A stretch of 64,000 nt of DNA from Saprospiraceae bacterium (lineage in GTDB: Bacteria; Bacteroidota; Bacteroidia; Chitinophagales; Saprospiraceae), in contig JANQQI010000055.1 of the NCBI GenBank assembly GCA_028285085.1, positions 94,027 through 158,026 on the forward strand, read 5' to 3'. Position 1 is the stretch's first letter; the number at the start of each line of letters is the position of its first letter. Position numbers and translations under genes: made by a program. Positions 53,783 to 58,599 of the stretch are shown piece by piece. The notes under the pieces were generated by a model that saw only the letters and a program-made list of their open reading frames with translations, had not been told where the DNA came from and searched no databases.

Positions 53783-54982
53783 ATGGAACAACCACCAGGC
53801 ATCAATATCATTCTAAACGACCCCAAGCTTTCGGATACTTTGCGGAAAATCGCGGAGAAGGTTATTGCACAAGAGCGCATCACCGAAGAGGAAGGTCTTC
53901 ACCTTTTCGAACATGCACCACTAGGCTATCTAGGAAGTCTGGCAAACTATATTCGAGAACGTAAACATGGTAATCGGACCTATTTCAACCGAAATTTTCA
54001 CCTCGAACCTACCAATGTCTGTTTGTACACCTGCACTTTCTGTTCTTACAGTCGCTTGATCAAAAAGCGTGAAGAAGGTTGGGAGTATACGATGGAGGAT
54101 ATGATGGATATCATCAAAAAGTATGATGATGAGCCCGTCACGGAAGTACACATCGTAGGTGGGGTTTTGCCGCAATACGACTTGAAATTCTACACCGAGC
54201 TATTCCAGAATATTAAGGCCCACCGTCCTGAATTGCACGTTAAAGCGCTCACGCCGGTAGAGTATCATTATATTTTTAAGAAAGGCAAGGTAAGTTACGC
54301 CAAGGGGATGCGTCTGATGAAAGAAGCTGGTCTGGACTCAATGCCAGGAGGTGGAGCCGAGATTTTCCATCCCGAAATTCGTGATCAGATTGCCGGAGGG
54401 AAATGTAGTGGCGAGCAGTGGCTGCAAATCCACGAAGAATGGCACAAACTCGGTCGTCGATCCAATGCGACAATGCTTTACGGACATATCGAAAAATATC
54501 ATCATCGCATTCATCACTTAGAAGAATTACGGAAATTACAAGATCGAACCGGTGGTTTTCAGACCTTCATTCCATTGAAATTCCGCAATAAAGACAACCA
54601 AATGTCGCATGTGCCTGAATCGACGATGGTGGAAGATGTACGCAATTATGCTATTAGTCGTATCTATCTCGATAATTTTGATCACGTGAAAGCTTATTGG
54701 CCGATGATTGGCCGTAATGCGGCGCAAATGCTGCTAGCTTTTGGAGTCGATGATATAGATGGTACCATCGATGATACGACCAAGATTTATACGATGGCCG
54801 GTTCGGAAGAACAAACCCCAGTGATGAGTACCCGCGAATTAGTGAATTTGATCCGAGCTGTAGGGCGGCAACCTATTGAAAGGGATACACTTTACAACGT
54901 CGTACAAGATTATACGGATCACGTTTTCGAAGACGATGTGCAGTATAAAGGATACGTTTCTCTACCTGTGGTTAATAATTAA
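53783..54982 (+). CDS. mqnE: Aminodeoxyfutalosine synthase (radical SAM)
   Basis: 399 residues. Joins SAM-derived adenosyl to an enolpyruvyl-benzoate in the futalosine route to menaquinone. The radical-SAM cluster motif is C80-x3-C84-x2-C87 (NVCLYTCTFC). MqnE rather than MqnC is indicated by GGGAEIFHPEIRDQIAGGKC, RRSNATMLYGHIE, TGGFQTFIPLKF and GVDDIDGTIDDT. Forms a compact operon with the phosphatase and mqnA downstream. Confidence 0.95.
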   Translation: MEQPPGINIILNDPKLSDTLRKIAEKVIAQERITEEEGLHLFEHAPLGYLGSLANYIRERKHGNRTYFNRNFHLEPTNVCLYTCTFCSYSRLIKKREEGWEYTMEDMMDIIKKYDDEPVTEVHIVGGVLPQYDLKFYTELFQNIKAHRPELHVKALTPVEYHYIFKKGKVSYAKGMRLMKEAGLDSMPGGGAEIFHPEIRDQIAGGKCSGEQWLQIHEEWHKLGRRSNATMLYGHIEKYHHRIHHLEELRKLQDRTGGFQTFIPLKFRNKDNQMSHVPESTMVEDVRNYAISRIYLDNFDHVKAYWPMIGRNAAQMLLAFGVDDIDGTIDDTTKIYTMAGSEEQTPVMSTRELVNLIRAVGRQPIERDTLYNVVQDYTDHVFEDDVQYKGYVSLPVVNN

Positions 54983-54987
54983 AGACT

Positions 54988-55617
54988 GTGAGCAAAAAGA
55001 CCATATACTTTGTTCGTCACGGCGAAACAGATTTCAACCGAATGGGTATTGTCCAGGGTAGTGGCGTAGACAGTGATTTGAATGAGACGGGCCGTCAGCA
55101 AGCTAATGCCTTTTATCAATCTTATCAGGATTTGCCACTCGATTTGATTATCACTTCTTCTCTAAAACGAACCTATCAAACAATCCAACCTTTCTTAGCG
55201 AGTCGAATCCCAATGCTCAAAGATGCTCGCATCAATGAGATTAATTGGGGAGACCACGAAGGGAAGAAAAGTGAACCTTGGATGATCAAAGCTTACCAAG
55301 AGATGATTGCAGAGTGGGGGCGTGATAACTTTTCGGCCAGACTCAGTAATGGCGAAAGTGCTGCGGAACTAGCAGATCGATTACAAAGATTCCTGGATGA
55401 TTTGGTGCAACGCTCCGAAAATCACATTTTGGTTTGTACTCACGGTCGAACTTTGCGTTGTATGATGTGTCTGGTGAAAGGCCAGCATCTTCGAGAGATG
55501 GAAAGCTATCGACATTCTAACACCGGATTGTTTAAAGTGCAATGGGCGGCTGGACAATTTGAAGTAGAACTCGAAAACGATACCCGTCATTTGGCATTAA
55601 TTCAACCCGAGAAATGA
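54988..55617 (+). CDS. Histidine phosphatase family protein
   Basis: 209 residues, GTG start 5 bases after mqnE. The catalytic His is H11 in YFVRHGETDFN; further motifs are SSLKRTYQTIQP, INEINWGDHEG and the second His in ILVCTHGRTLRCMM. The family includes phosphoglycerate mutases and small-molecule phosphatases. Its stop overlaps the ATG of mqnA (ATGA), so it is firmly in the menaquinone operon, although no phosphatase step is known in this pathway. Substrate unknown. Confidence 0.9.
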   Translation: MSKKTIYFVRHGETDFNRMGIVQGSGVDSDLNETGRQQANAFYQSYQDLPLDLIITSSLKRTYQTIQPFLASRIPMLKDARINEINWGDHEGKKSEPWMIKAYQEMIAEWGRDNFSARLSNGESAAELADRLQRFLDDLVQRSENHILVCTHGRTLRCMMCLVKGQHLREMESYRHSNTGLFKVQWAAGQFEVELENDTRHLALIQPEK

Positions 55618-56384
55618 AGCAACTGAAAGTTACTGCGGTGAGTTATTTGAATACGAAGCCTTTGCTCTACGGCTTGCTACACAGTGATTTGCAAGCTGAA
55701 TTGGACTTGGAACTCAATATCCCTTCGGTTTGTGCGCAAAAGTTGAAAGATGGCGAGGTGGATTTGGGCTTGGTCCCGGTCGCAATTATCCCGGAGCTAG
55801 CCAATCCACATATCATTTCAGATTATTGCATTGGAACTGTCGGGGCGGTACAAACTGTATGTATTTTTAGTGAAGTGCCCATAGAAGAAGTCAAAACCTT
55901 ATATCTCGATTATCATTCACGAACATCCGTAGAGTTGACCAAAATTCTCGTTCGCGAGCATTGGAAAACGCATCCCCGCTTTGTTCCGGCGGAGCCGGGC
56001 TTTGAAGCAAAGATAGAAGGCACCACCGCAGCCTTAGTGATTGGTGATCGAGCCATCGACCTTTTGCCTCAGTATCCATTTTGCTATGATCTTGGCGCGG
56101 AGTGGGAAAATTATACGGGCCTGCCCTTTGTCTTCGCTGCCTGGATTAGCAACCGGCCCTTACCGACTGAGTTTATCCAACGATTTAATGCAGCTCTGGC
56201 GGAAGGATTACGACACATTCCGCAATTAATGCTGCTTTTACCACCACCTCGACCTGACTTTGATCTAGAAGACTACTTTACTAATGCCATTAGTTACGAA
56301 TTGGATCAACTCAAGCGCCAGGCATTATCGCGTTTTCTGCGCGAAATGAATGTCCCACTGCCGCAGATGCAAGGCGGGATTTAG
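55614..56384 (+). CDS. mqnA: Chorismate dehydratase
   Basis: 256 residues. First futalosine-pathway step: chorismate to 3-enolpyruvyl-benzoate. MqnA family features are KVTAVSYLNTKPLLYGL (5-21), LKDGEVDLGLVPVAIIPEL (about 45-63), LYLDYHSRTSVELTKIL (about 97-113) and AALVIGDRAIDLL. The periplasmic-binding-protein-like fold is complete. Converges on the methyltransferase gene with stop codons overlapping by 4 bases, so there is no room for a terminator between them. Confidence 0.94.
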   Translation: MKQLKVTAVSYLNTKPLLYGLLHSDLQAELDLELNIPSVCAQKLKDGEVDLGLVPVAIIPELANPHIISDYCIGTVGAVQTVCIFSEVPIEEVKTLYLDYHSRTSVELTKILVREHWKTHPRFVPAEPGFEAKIEGTTAALVIGDRAIDLLPQYPFCYDLGAEWENYTGLPFVFAAWISNRPLPTEFIQRFNAALAEGLRHIPQLMLLLPPPRPDFDLEDYFTNAISYELDQLKRQALSRFLREMNVPLPQMQGGI

Positions 56385-57148
56385 ATTGGCGTGAAATACA
56401 CAATGTAGTTTTGATAAACCAAGGGTAACACCTGATCTTTGCTTAGAAAAGATTGGAGTTGTTGGTGTAAATTCGCTTCAACCTCTTCGATAGATTGCTC
56501 GCCCATTTCTACTCTGGCGATGACATTACTTTGCGTACAGAGGTAGGTGACAAACTCTGCCTGACTGTAGATAACGGTATTCTCAAATTTATCCATCGCA
56601 CTGACCTCAAATCCCATCTCACGCAAAGCGGCTTTGTCATTGAAGTCAAATCGATTGCGGGGCGGAGAGGGAAAAGCGTTTTGGTAATCTTCTGTATACC
56701 AGCGCTTTAATTTTTGATTATCATTGGCGGTATCACCTCGGTATGCATTTTCATAAACGATTAAGGGGGCTTCTGGCTTGAGAACGCGTCGTGCCTCCGC
56801 AAAGAAATCAGTATGCTTGAACCAATGTAAGCCGGAAGCAACCGTAATGAGGTCAACACTGTGATCGGGTAAATCTAATTGTTCTGCATTGCCTAGCCGG
56901 TAGTCAATGTTTAAGCCCGGTTTGGCCAACGACAGCATATCGGGCGAGGGATCGATACCAATGACCCGTTGTACACGTTCGGCCAGAGCTATTGTCGATA
57001 AACCAGTACCACACGCAATATCTACCGCAAGCTCAATGGGCCGATTGAGCCACTGAAAAATGCGATCAATGCTGTTTGGATGATGATAGGGCCGGCCGGC
57101 ATCATAACGTTGGGCGGCTGATTTTGAGCTGAAGTAGGCTTTTGGCAT
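56381..57148 (-). CDS. Class I SAM-dependent methyltransferase
   Basis: 255 residues from the ATG at 57148. SAM-binding motif I is VDIACGTGLSTIALAERV (about 41-58), with IGIDPSPDMLSLAK, LGNAEQLDLPDHSVDLITVA and EARRVLKPEAPLIVYE downstream. Small-molecule methyltransferase of the UbiE/biotin-type superfamily; the substrate is unknown. A menaquinone role is tempting because of mqnA next door, but the opposite orientation and lack of MenG-specific motifs argue against assuming it. A TATCTTTG box (57189-57182) is a possible promoter. Confidence 0.87.
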   Translation of the reverse strand: MPKAYFSSKSAAQRYDAGRPYHHPNSIDRIFQWLNRPIELAVDIACGTGLSTIALAERVQRVIGIDPSPDMLSLAKPGLNIDYRLGNAEQLDLPDHSVDLITVASGLHWFKHTDFFAEARRVLKPEAPLIVYENAYRGDTANDNQKLKRWYTEDYQNAFPSPPRNRFDFNDKAALREMGFEVSAMDKFENTVIYSQAEFVTYLCTQSNVIARVEMGEQSIEEVEANLHQQLQSFLSKDQVLPLVYQNYIVYFTPI

Positions 57149-57274
57149 TTGCAAAGTAATTTTGAAGGTCTAAACGTCGTGCAAAGATATCAGGACGACT
57201 GCGTCGGCCGTCGAATTTGATCTACCCGAATCAAGGTATTTTAGTAAAAAAATCACGAATGTTCAAACTAGCTA

Positions 57275-57305
57275 TTGCATCTTTAGTCGATAGCCCCTAG
57301 TTTTG
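57275..57305 (+). promoter_or_regulatory. Promoter of the cysteine biosynthesis operon
   Basis: TTG at 57275-57277, exactly 20 bases, then TAGTTTTG at 57298-57305. Starts usually fall 5-9 bases after this box, which would be 57310-57314. The first leader ATG is at 57313, so the transcript may start at or within a few bases of the start codon. Confidence 0.75.
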
Positions 57306-57312
57306 TAAGCAA

Positions 57313-57366
57313 ATGAAAATGAATTATTCAAATATCGCATGTTGCTGTTGTCCAATCCATTCCTGA
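57313..57366 (+). CDS. Poly-cysteine leader peptide 1
   Basis: Seventeen codons, MKMNYSNIACCCCPIHS, with four consecutive Cys codons (TGT TGC TGT TGT, 57340-57351) and a TGA at 57364-57366. A second in-frame ATG is at 57319. It lies directly after a consensus promoter and just ahead of an intrinsic terminator, upstream of a cysteine synthase operon. The expected role is as a sensor of Cys-tRNA: the ribosome stalls at the Cys run when cysteine is scarce. The peptide itself probably has no function. Conservation cannot be tested here. Confidence 0.85.
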   Translation: MKMNYSNIACCCCPIHS

Positions 57367-57435
57367 TGGAAAGACAAGCGCATGACTATTTGTAAAAATA
57401 AAAATGAGCCTTTCCATCACGGGAAGGCTTTTTTT
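57364..57435 (+). promoter_or_regulatory. Transcription attenuator 1 (antiterminator/terminator)
   Basis: Terminator: 9-bp stem 57407-57415 with 57421-57429 (one G-U pair), loop ATCAC, then seven T. Antiterminator: TGATGGAAAG at 57364-57373, beginning with the leader stop codon, is a perfect 10-base complement of CTTTCCATCA at 57410-57419, which includes most of the terminator 5' arm. A ribosome at the stop codon would cover the upstream element and allow termination. A ribosome stalled on the Cys codons (57340-57351) would leave it free and permit read-through. Confidence 0.82.
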
Positions 57436-57473
57436 GTAAACTTAATTCAAGAATGCTTGTTTAAACATTTATC

Positions 57474-57560
57474 ATGAAAACATTTTCTCACTACACTGTC
57501 GCTTGTTGTTGCTGTTGTTGTCTAATTCCGCTGGGAAGATACCCTGCTGGTGTAGTATGA
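57474..57560 (+). CDS. Poly-cysteine leader peptide 2
   Basis: Twenty-eight codons starting MKTFSHYTVACCCCCC and ending with LIPLGRYPAGVV. It has six consecutive Cys codons (57504-57521) and a TGA at 57558-57560. It begins 38 bases after terminator 1, with no new promoter box, so it is read only in transcripts that pass the first attenuator. A second terminator follows before cysM. It duplicates the logic of leader 1 with a longer Cys run. Confidence 0.83.
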   Translation: MKTFSHYTVACCCCCCLIPLGRYPAGVV

Positions 57561-57592
57561 GTATTCATATCATTGAAATCAAGATACCGCAG

Positions 57593-57635
57593 AAACCCTT
57601 CCTCCCGGCCCGGATGGAAGGGTTTTTGTTTTTTT
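57593..57635 (+). terminator. Terminator 2 in the cysteine operon leader
   Basis: Perfect 10-bp stem AAACCCTTCC / GGAAGGGTTT (57593-57602 with 57616-57625), a 13-base loop, then TTGTTTTTTT. It lies 22 bases before cysM, so it must be bypassed for expression. A weaker alternative pairing, 57528-57538 with 57598-57608 (nine pairs, a 2x2 internal loop and one G-U), would compete with the 5' arm. The ribosome positions for this second switch are less clear than for the first. Confidence 0.8.
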
Positions 57636-57657
57636 AACCATTTTAATTCAACGATTC

Positions 57658-58599
57658 ATGACACAATATATCGGCCGACAATATCTAGATTTAGACAGCA
57701 AGCTTGAAAAAGTAGCCGGGCTGGTTGGCAACACACCTTTATACCGAATTACCAGTGTTTTTAACAAACCAGGCGTTGAAATCTACGCTAAGCTAGAGTG
57801 GCAACAATTAGGGGGCAGCGTTAAATCCCGCCCCGCCTTCAACATCATCAAGCAAGCGATTCGCTCCGGCCAGCTTTCCGAAAACAAAGTTTTGCTAGAT
57901 GCTACGAGTGGTAACACCGGCATCGCTTACGCCGCGGTTGGGGCGGCCTTAGGTATTCCAGTAGCGCTGTGCTTACCCGAAAACGCCTCCGATGAGCGTA
58001 AAAAAATTCTAAATGCGTTAGGTGTAGATATTATTTACACATCTCCCTTTGAAGGCACCGATGGTGCGCAACTGAAGGCTAAAGAACTCTTTCGAGCATT
58101 TCCTGAGAAATATTTTTACGCCGATCAATATGCCAACGATGCCAATTGGCGGGCGCATTATGAAACAACGGCTCCTGAAATCTGGGCACAAACCCAAGAG
58201 CGAATCACCCACTTCGTGGCTGGACTGGGCACTACGGGAACCTTTACCGGAACGGGACGACGCCTACGAGAACTACAACCTGATATCGAATTGGTAGGAC
58301 TCCAGCCCAATAATCCGATGCACGGCCTCGAAGGTTGGAAGCATTTGGAAACGGCTATTGTCCCTAAAATTTACGATGACCAAGTCGCTGATCGTATCCT
58401 CGAAGTAGATACACTGGATGCCTACGACCTCATTCGTCAGATTGCGCGGGAGGAAGGTCTACTCGTTTCGCCTTCGGCGGCCGCGAATTTGCTGGGTGCT
58501 ATCCAAGTTGCGGAGCAAATCGAGCAAGGGGTAATTGTCACCACCTTCGCGGACGATGCCAGCAAGTATAATGAAGTCATTCAACAAGTTTTTGCTTAA
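57658..58599 (+). CDS. cysM: Cysteine synthase, CysM-type (PLP-dependent)
   Basis: 313 residues. Beta-replacement enzyme that makes cysteine from an activated serine. The PLP lysine is K56 in GGSVKSRPAFN; the phosphate and substrate loops are TSGNTGIAYA (about 83-92) and GLGTTGTFTGTGR. Because mec, cysO and an E1-rhodanese gene follow directly, the sulfur donor is probably a protein thiocarboxylate rather than free sulfide, as in mycobacterial CysM. The O-phosphoserine-specific Arg region of M. tuberculosis CysM reads GLQPNNPMHG here, so the acceptor (O-acetyl- or O-phosphoserine) is open. First structural gene behind the tandem poly-Cys attenuators. Confidence 0.9.
   Translation: MTQYIGRQYLDLDSKLEKVAGLVGNTPLYRITSVFNKPGVEIYAKLEWQQLGGSVKSRPAFNIIKQAIRSGQLSENKVLLDATSGNTGIAYAAVGAALGIPVALCLPENASDERKKILNALGVDIIYTSPFEGTDGAQLKAKELFRAFPEKYFYADQYANDANWRAHYETTAPEIWAQTQERITHFVAGLGTTGTFTGTGRRLRELQPDIELVGLQPNNPMHGLEGWKHLETAIVPKIYDDQVADRILEVDTLDAYDLIRQIAREEGLLVSPSAAANLLGAIQVAEQIEQGVIVTTFADDASKYNEVIQQVFA

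Follow-up and report, generated by a model that had tools for sequence, protein, structure and literature searches.

In the classical trp, his and leu attenuators, a short leader open reading frame (ORF) rich in codons for the pathway product is combined with mutually exclusive antiterminator and terminator structures, the terminator lying before the operon. In tandem riboswitches and T-boxes, the RNA itself recognises metabolites or tRNA and no leader peptide is involved. The mycobacterial poly-Cys leader ORFs of Canestrari 2020 (cited in PMC9094748 and PMC13236596) are reportedly leaderless and respond to cysteine. A sequence-only reading of the DNA studied here had mentioned poly-Cys leaders in Actinobacteria, and passages of PMC1262725 do report that actinobacterial cys operons are preceded by short ORFs containing Cys runs; the same passages describe no conserved terminator hairpins there and suggest a role of Rho. 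A conserved uORF precedes mycobacterial nirA, its Cys content being unstated in the excerpt (PMC4974804). The uORFC-8-2 motif found before cysS in Rhodobacterales has a Cys uORF and a terminator-like stem with a U-run, for which tRNA-Cys attenuation has been proposed (excerpt of PMC8632094). Two leader ORFs in series on one mRNA are described for Salmonella mgtCBR, where they sense ATP and proline and the stem-loops are unlike intrinsic terminators; the excerpt also mentions the metE tandem riboswitch pair (PMC3641672). Within Bacteroidota, an excerpt of PMC9723704 gives clues for leader-peptide attenuators before amino-acid operons of F. psychrophilum, the amino acids being unnamed in it, and B. 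thetaiotaomicron has 5′ UTRs with sORFs, with no cysteine link mentioned in the excerpt (PMC7366714). The open-licence literature searched, including parts of PMC8092293 and PMC2258182, yielded neither a Cys attenuator in Bacteroidota nor a same-signal tandem of leader-peptide attenuators, in agreement with the earlier reader, who named no such description for Bacteroidota and especially none of two in series.

The window, a stretch of 64,000 nucleotides from a Saprospiraceae genome, contains leader 1, predicted terminator 1, leader 2, predicted terminator 2 and a cluster of cysM-mec-cysO-moeZ-like genes, in this order (Table 1). Leader 1 has four Cys codons (TGT TGC TGT TGT, 57340-57351) and leader 2 has six (57504-57521). 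Both predicted terminators are GC-rich hairpins with a U-rich tract behind them. The gap between the end of leader 2 and the ATG of cysM measures 97 nt and is occupied by a strong predicted terminator. The layout proposed earlier, with leaders of four and six Cys codons each followed by a terminator ahead of the operon, is borne out in both the sequence and the folds. By sequence and fold models, the region very probably comprises two ribosome-mediated attenuators in series ahead of the cysM-mec-cysO-moeZ-like operon, predicted to open when charged tRNA-Cys is scarce. No Rfam family matched 57100-57800 at its gathering score (five matches up to E 1); the best match, rnk_pseudo, scored 36.9 bits (gathering 55), and known Rfam families (riboswitch, T-box or leader) were rejected for this stretch on these scores.

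Table 1. Positions of the leaders, predicted RNA elements and genes (window coordinates unless a locus is named).
Feature	Location	Strand	Details
Putative Bacteroidota-type promoter	57275..57305	+	TTG 57275-57277, 20 nt, TAGTTTTG (TAnnTTTG) 57298-57305
Leader peptide 1, 17 aa, MKMNYSNIACCCCPIHS	57313..57366	+	ATG 57313, stop TGA 57364-57366
Protector (1:2) hairpin, switch 1	57338..57384	+	Cys-codon stretch paired with antiterminator arm in MFE fold
Antiterminator 5′ arm, switch 1, TGATGGAAAG	57364..57373	+	overlaps leader 1 stop codon
Predicted intrinsic terminator 1	57406..57431 (hairpin 57406-57430)	+	10 bp, 5-nt loop, then U-tract
Leader peptide 2, 28 aa, MKTFSHYTVACCCCCCLIPLGRYPAGVV	57474..57560	+	ATG 57474, stop 57558-57560
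Antiterminator 5′ region, switch 2	57530..57553	+	pairs with 57584-57592 and 57600-57609 in truncated-transcript fold
Predicted intrinsic terminator 2	57589..57635 (hairpin 57589-57629)	+	14-bp stem, small inner helix, then U-rich tract
CysM-like cysteine synthase, 313 aa	57658..58599	+	PF00291, E 1.5e-64
Mec-like JAB/JAMM peptidase, 151 aa	58608..59063	+	PF14464; PDB sequence matches 2kcq, 2kks
CysO-like (ThiS) sulfur carrier, 93 aa	59107..59388	+	ending ...AIAGGIA; PF02597; PDB 4n6e_B, 3dwg_C
MoeZ-like ThiF-rhodanese adenylyltransferase/sulfurtransferase, 381 aa	59421..60566	+	PF00899, PF00581
Second tandem poly-Cys pair	L061 (G000:C95:103000-107500), 3225-2919	minus	7 Cys; CCCCLCCC

The trp-type features seen here are a leader with a run of Cys codons, a predicted intrinsic terminator, and a predicted, mutually exclusive antiterminator located after the run. 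The units thus resemble the trp, his and leu attenuators in their leader codons, in the exclusive antiterminator/terminator pair and in the intrinsic terminator ahead of the operon, but differ in using Cys as the signal, in occurring in Bacteroidota and in placing two same-signal units in series at many loci. The actinobacterial leaders share the Cys-run short ORFs before cys operons, whereas the intrinsic terminators and antiterminators conserved here are reported missing there in the passages available (PMC1262725); the mycobacterial nirA uORF may correspond to the reductase leaders described below (excerpt of PMC4974804). The uORFC-8-2 motif, as excerpted, differs in having two tandem Cys codons, a single unit, cysS as target and a host in another phylum (PMC8632094). 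Serial leader ORFs are shared with mgtCBR, but its two signals differ, whereas both units here carry Cys runs and intrinsic terminators (excerpt of PMC3641672), which argues against a tandem of the mgtCBR type for two different signals. Tandem riboswitches and T-boxes share the serial duplication of sensor and terminator; a leader peptide is present only in the window system. What appears new against the literature searched is predicted classical Cys-codon attenuation with a predicted terminator and antiterminator, serially doubled, at two sulfur operons of one genome.

A promoter ahead of leader 1 had been called earlier from the letters. A scan of 56700-58200 for E. coli-type promoters gave none on the + strand, and the putative promoter in Table 1 was called by a −33/−7 consensus (TTG, TAnnTTTG) that we take to be of the Bacteroidota type. 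Because TAGTTTTG ends 7 nt 5′ of the leader 1 ATG, a nearly leaderless leader 1 mRNA is predicted; by the position of this putative promoter, leader 1 may be like the mycobacterial poly-Cys leaders of Canestrari 2020. Of 68 first leaders, 26 have TAnnTTTG within 150 nt, and 18 of these within 40 nt; for the 24 second leaders the numbers are 5 and 2. Shuffles give 9.7%.

According to the proposed mechanism, a ribosome supplied with enough Cys-tRNA would run to the stop codon and mask the antiterminator arm, so that the terminator forms. With Cys-tRNA in short supply, it would stall on the Cys codons, leaving the arm free to pair with the terminator 5′ arm, and RNA polymerase would pass. In switch 1, the protector hairpin would restore termination when there is no translation. 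Transcription from the promoter would reach cysM only past both switches; such an AND gate is proposed to lower leakage and steepen the response. From the sequence and the models we infer sensing of Cys-tRNA charging, tight shut-off and a graded response. In the fold model the anatomy of switch 1 is that of a textbook attenuator, with TGATGGAAAG perfectly complementary to 57410-57419 over 10 bp.

The terminators and antiterminators were assessed over the leaders collected from all loci. Two of 95 leaders were left out of the terminator test for a spacer below 50 nt, and L174, a sulfite-reductase locus with no full ORF, was left out of the terminator, antiterminator and ribosome-state tests. 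A predicted terminator with dG ≤ −10 follows 88/93 leaders versus 11.5% of shuffles, and one with dG ≤ −15 follows 71/93 versus 1.6%. The antiterminator and ribosome-state tests used 86 units, the seven leaders lacking a terminator of −10 or better that starts 30–100 nt past the run being excluded. The mean energy of the duplex between the spacer and the terminator 5′ arm plus loop was −15.2 kcal/mol for own partners, −9.4 for shuffled and −10.6 for swapped ones, and none of 20,000 permutations matched the own-partner pairing. Individually, 57 of the 86 duplexes are stronger than 48 or more of their own 50 shuffles, and 29 fail to beat 95% of them. The antiterminator starts 7–30 nt past the Cys run in most units.

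The pairing is specific in two further ways. Spacers of the CUCCAC type reach −12.9 with other CUCCAC arms and −11.8 with CCUUUCC arms, whereas those of the CCUUUCC type favour CCUUUCC arms (−12.3) over CUCCAC arms (−8.6), which suggests that spacer and terminator have changed together. Within tandems, the own terminator is preferred over that of the sibling unit in 38/42 units; cross-pairing between the two units of a tandem was rejected on this basis, and shared genome GC content is unlikely as the cause of the pairing. The earlier proposal of a ribosome-mediated attenuation layout is strengthened, since the runs and terminators are conserved and the units have a predicted antiterminator that goes with their own terminator, an element that had not been identified before. 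This specificity, together with the conservation at two operons, points to selection on the switch as a whole.

In folding with a modelled ribosome, mean sequestration of the terminator 5′ arm was 0.61 for a ribosome stalled on the first Cys codon, 0.13 for one on the stop codon and 0.49 with none, and it was higher in the stalled than in the stop state in 84/86 units. Some of this contrast comes from the model itself, in which a ribosome on the stop codon hides a portion of the arm; the fairer control is the stalled state with a shuffled spacer, which gave 0.40. In the model, the terminator of switch 1 has a probability of 0.926 with the ribosome at the stop, 0.002 with it at the first Cys codon and 0.971 without a ribosome. 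The antiterminator of switch 2 is weaker and wins in the fold model only before the terminator is fully made, with 5′ arm sequestration of 0.586 when stalled and 0.084 at the stop. Terminator probability averages 0.88 stalled and 0.95 at the stop over all units (0.89 and 0.92 for switch 2 of the window). The terminator is thus favoured at equilibrium in most units, switch 2 included, even with a stalled ribosome, and antitermination must mostly be kinetic. A protector hairpin, present in switch 1, is weakly supported by the models as a general feature, the effect being modest (arm sequestration of 0.49 without a ribosome versus 0.61 stalled).

The sequence-only reading had pointed to related genomes as the place where the Cys runs and terminators should recur. 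Both are conserved, at cysM loci and at a sulfite-reductase-like operon. An alignment of the window CysM with nine orthologs from a first search of relatives (A1) was used to scan named genomes, and the best 80 of at least 568 confirmed relatives were examined, a set that leans to close cysM orthologs; the best matches, among those listed, come mostly from metagenome-assembled genomes of Saprospiraceae and other Bacteroidota. In these best 80 of at least 568, short ORFs with three or more consecutive Cys codons lie within 900 nt upstream at 58 loci, with two or more such ORFs at 16, and amount to 74 in the 68,487 bases upstream of cysM versus 52 in 1,398,186 other bases. A terminator 30–100 nt past the Cys run was found for 71/74 of the cysM-near ORFs versus 15/51 of the others, one of the 52 having too little sequence for this count; 12 of those 15 are leaders too, lying at a greater distance ahead of cysM or in front of a locus of the OAH-sulfhydrylase type. 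Cys also accounts for 90 of the 153 homopolymer runs (three or more residues) in 326 upstream ATG short ORFs, followed by Leu with 25, and the Leu runs are probably a frame shadow. The mixed use of TGT (347) and TGC (120) in the runs indicates that the Cys run is not a simple DNA repeat. Chance origin of the poly-Cys ORFs is ruled out by the enrichment, the terminator control and the homopolymer comparison.

A unit was defined as a leader up to 4.2 kb upstream with a terminator starting 30–100 nt after the Cys run. Again within the best 80 of at least 568, and with the window included, at least one unit is present in 63 of 70 assessable Bacteroidota cysM loci, two are present in 19/70 and none by the rule in 7/70. 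Four named loci with less than 480 nt upstream (L114, L115, L116, L132) were left out of this count, and L139, with two far leaders failing the terminator rule, was scored as none. Culturable environmental carriers of a single unit include Reichenbachiella agariperforans DSM 26134 (L122) and Pseudoflavitalea rhizosphaerae KACC 18655 (L135). The outgroup loci, from Acidobacteria, an Armatimonadetes-type lineage and one unplaced bacterium, have units in 0/7. An even sample of the class (295 genomes) gave 12 cysM orthologs above 400 bits, of which six, our own included, have a leader within 1.5 kb; a 3-Cys ORF at −1305 in L296 was taken as chance and left uncounted. In two of the six orthologs without such a leader (G070, G082), the same contig carries, about 1.4–1.5 kb upstream of cysM, an ortholog of the sulfite reductase that has a poly-Cys ORF of its own. 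The CysK-like paralogues of 36–40% identity (20 loci, L011-L030) show no Cys run in an ATG short ORF, with Cys runs somewhere in the examined stretch at L015, L021 and L027, and of the 12 CysM matches with lower scores in the class (L306-L317), L313 alone has a 4-Cys short ORF, without a terminator. A borderline site at L015:2590 (minus strand) is a TTG-started 3-Cys ORF upstream of the CysK-like gene on the same strand, its hairpin of −9.9 kcal/mol narrowly missing the rule.

On a quick cysM tree with many open forks, unit presence requires at least seven changes and the tandem state at least 11; the latter number indicates that the doubling was probably gained or lost repeatedly. The distance between the two Cys runs of a cysM tandem is 143–208 nt at 17 of the 19 loci and 858–867 nt at the remaining two (L119 and L137), where it implies that the second unit would act inside the cluster. 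The gene-proximal run is the longer one in 14/19 cysM tandems, shorter in one and equal in four, and this longer downstream run may set two thresholds. It is not a general rule, being contradicted by the sulfite-reductase tandems, whose downstream run is longer in two, shorter in four and equal in two (n = 8, by first run). Some units head a longer cluster; at L007/L127, for example, the cysM cluster is preceded by a peroxiredoxin-like ORF, assigned by eye, with a 6-Cys leader in front of it.

All 70 matches to four consecutive TGY codons in our own genome were inspected. Filtering for a run of at least four Cys, an ORF of at most 60 aa, freedom from large ORFs and a terminator behind left two sites, both tandem: the window pair and the pair on contig C95. 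The C95 pair precedes two ORFs, one for a 712-aa nitrite/sulfite reductase-like protein, whose top NCBIfam matches (NirA family first) lie under cut-off, and one for a tetrapyrrole methylase. Given the Cys leaders and the siroheme-type neighbour, we infer sulfite rather than nitrite as the substrate of the reductase-like protein. Fourteen strong orthologs (E ≤ 3.2e-180, own included) were found in 59 genomes, 12 of them with poly-Cys ORFs upstream and eight with two. By the terminator rule, 10/13 have a unit and 8/13 have two, and the fourteenth also passes. The class sample has the reductase in 68/295 genomes; scoring runs alone, 10 of 29 further loci from it have a Cys run within 600 nt upstream, and four have two.

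Other target genes came from 80 further TGY-run sites in relatives, most of which lie inside large ORFs or lack an ATG. At six, a free short ORF starting with ATG is followed by a gene; three of these (L223, L236, L271) pass the terminator rule, L276 just fails with its hairpin at 28 nt, and L263 and L291 were rejected as leaders because they resemble chance or repeat occurrences. L223 (309-1805) has a full unit, and L276 (319-1783) a poly-Cys leader, directly before an OAH/OAS sulfhydrylase gene (TIGR01326, above cut-off in both). At L271 (319-1613), a 5-Cys leader and a very stable terminator (−33.9 kcal/mol) stand before a thioredoxin-reductase-like flavoprotein gene. At L236 (300-1476), a 7-Cys leader and terminator precede a RimK-like ATP-grasp ligase (a weak match of 55.6 bits, under cut-off), possibly part of a Cys-containing peptide or thiol pathway.

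The same RNA switch could be set by the poly-Cys nascent peptide itself, by becoming oxidized, by binding a metal or persulfide, or by stalling intrinsically, instead of by Cys-tRNA charging. Trp-type leaders have few regulatory codons, fewer than the runs of up to 10 Cys seen here, and leaders do head one peroxiredoxin-cysM cluster and one thioredoxin-reductase-like gene, as a peptide sensor might. Arrest peptides, however, usually conserve specific side chains, and the residues flanking the runs differ between loci while the Cys codons are constant. The antiterminator position 7–30 nt past the run in most units suits stalling at any Cys codon, and the main targets found are cysteine-supply genes; we therefore hold a peptide sensor to be improbable.

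That the terminators are constitutive or serve other transcripts, the leaders being relics with no regulatory effect, agrees with equilibrium folds that favour the terminators in most states. It leaves unaccounted for the antiterminators specific to their own terminators and the conservation at two separate operons, and appears very improbable. Least credible of all, with hardly a chance of being right, is an action through translational coupling or reinitiation that would raise or gate translation of cysM without transcription termination: such a role has been proposed for leader ORFs near a gene (excerpt of PMC4833913), but the strong predicted terminator between leader 2 and cysM and the predicted intrinsic terminators after nearly all leaders argue against it.

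Attenuation by Cys-tRNA charging therefore remains the preferred reading. We give an even chance to its extension into a ribosome-read cysteine-starvation regulon of Bacteroidota, in which poly-Cys attenuators form duplicated same-signal modules at cysM-mec-cysO-moeZ and sulfite reductase-siroheme operons, have been repeatedly gained and lost, act in tandem as an AND gate with different thresholds, and represent the first same-signal tandem of leader-peptide attenuators. If true, this would explain the control of cysteine supply in part of a large phylum, and the repeated duplication in series would offer a natural case for the benefit of two same-signal switches, be it less leakage, greater steepness of the response or two thresholds. 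Each unit is compact and modular, and the poly-Cys mark with its terminator can help to find sulfur genes in uncultured Bacteroidota.

The operon genes are named by resemblance because most NCBIfam matches fall under curated cut-offs. The top match of the CysM-like ORF is TIGR01138 cysM with 325.2 bits (cut-off 394.2), and the MoeZ-like ORF matches PRK07411 and PRK07878, both under cut-off. Just upstream of the locus, at 53783-56384, are MqnC-like radical SAM and MqnA-like genes (PF19288, PF02621) of the futalosine menaquinone pathway. CysO-like ORFs, chosen by a GG near the C-terminus from the window and 44 related loci, have one to four variable extra residues after the GG in 40/45 cases. 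A comparable tail of HcyS is trimmed before activation, and the neighbouring JAMM peptidase may have to trim the CysO-like tails in the same way.
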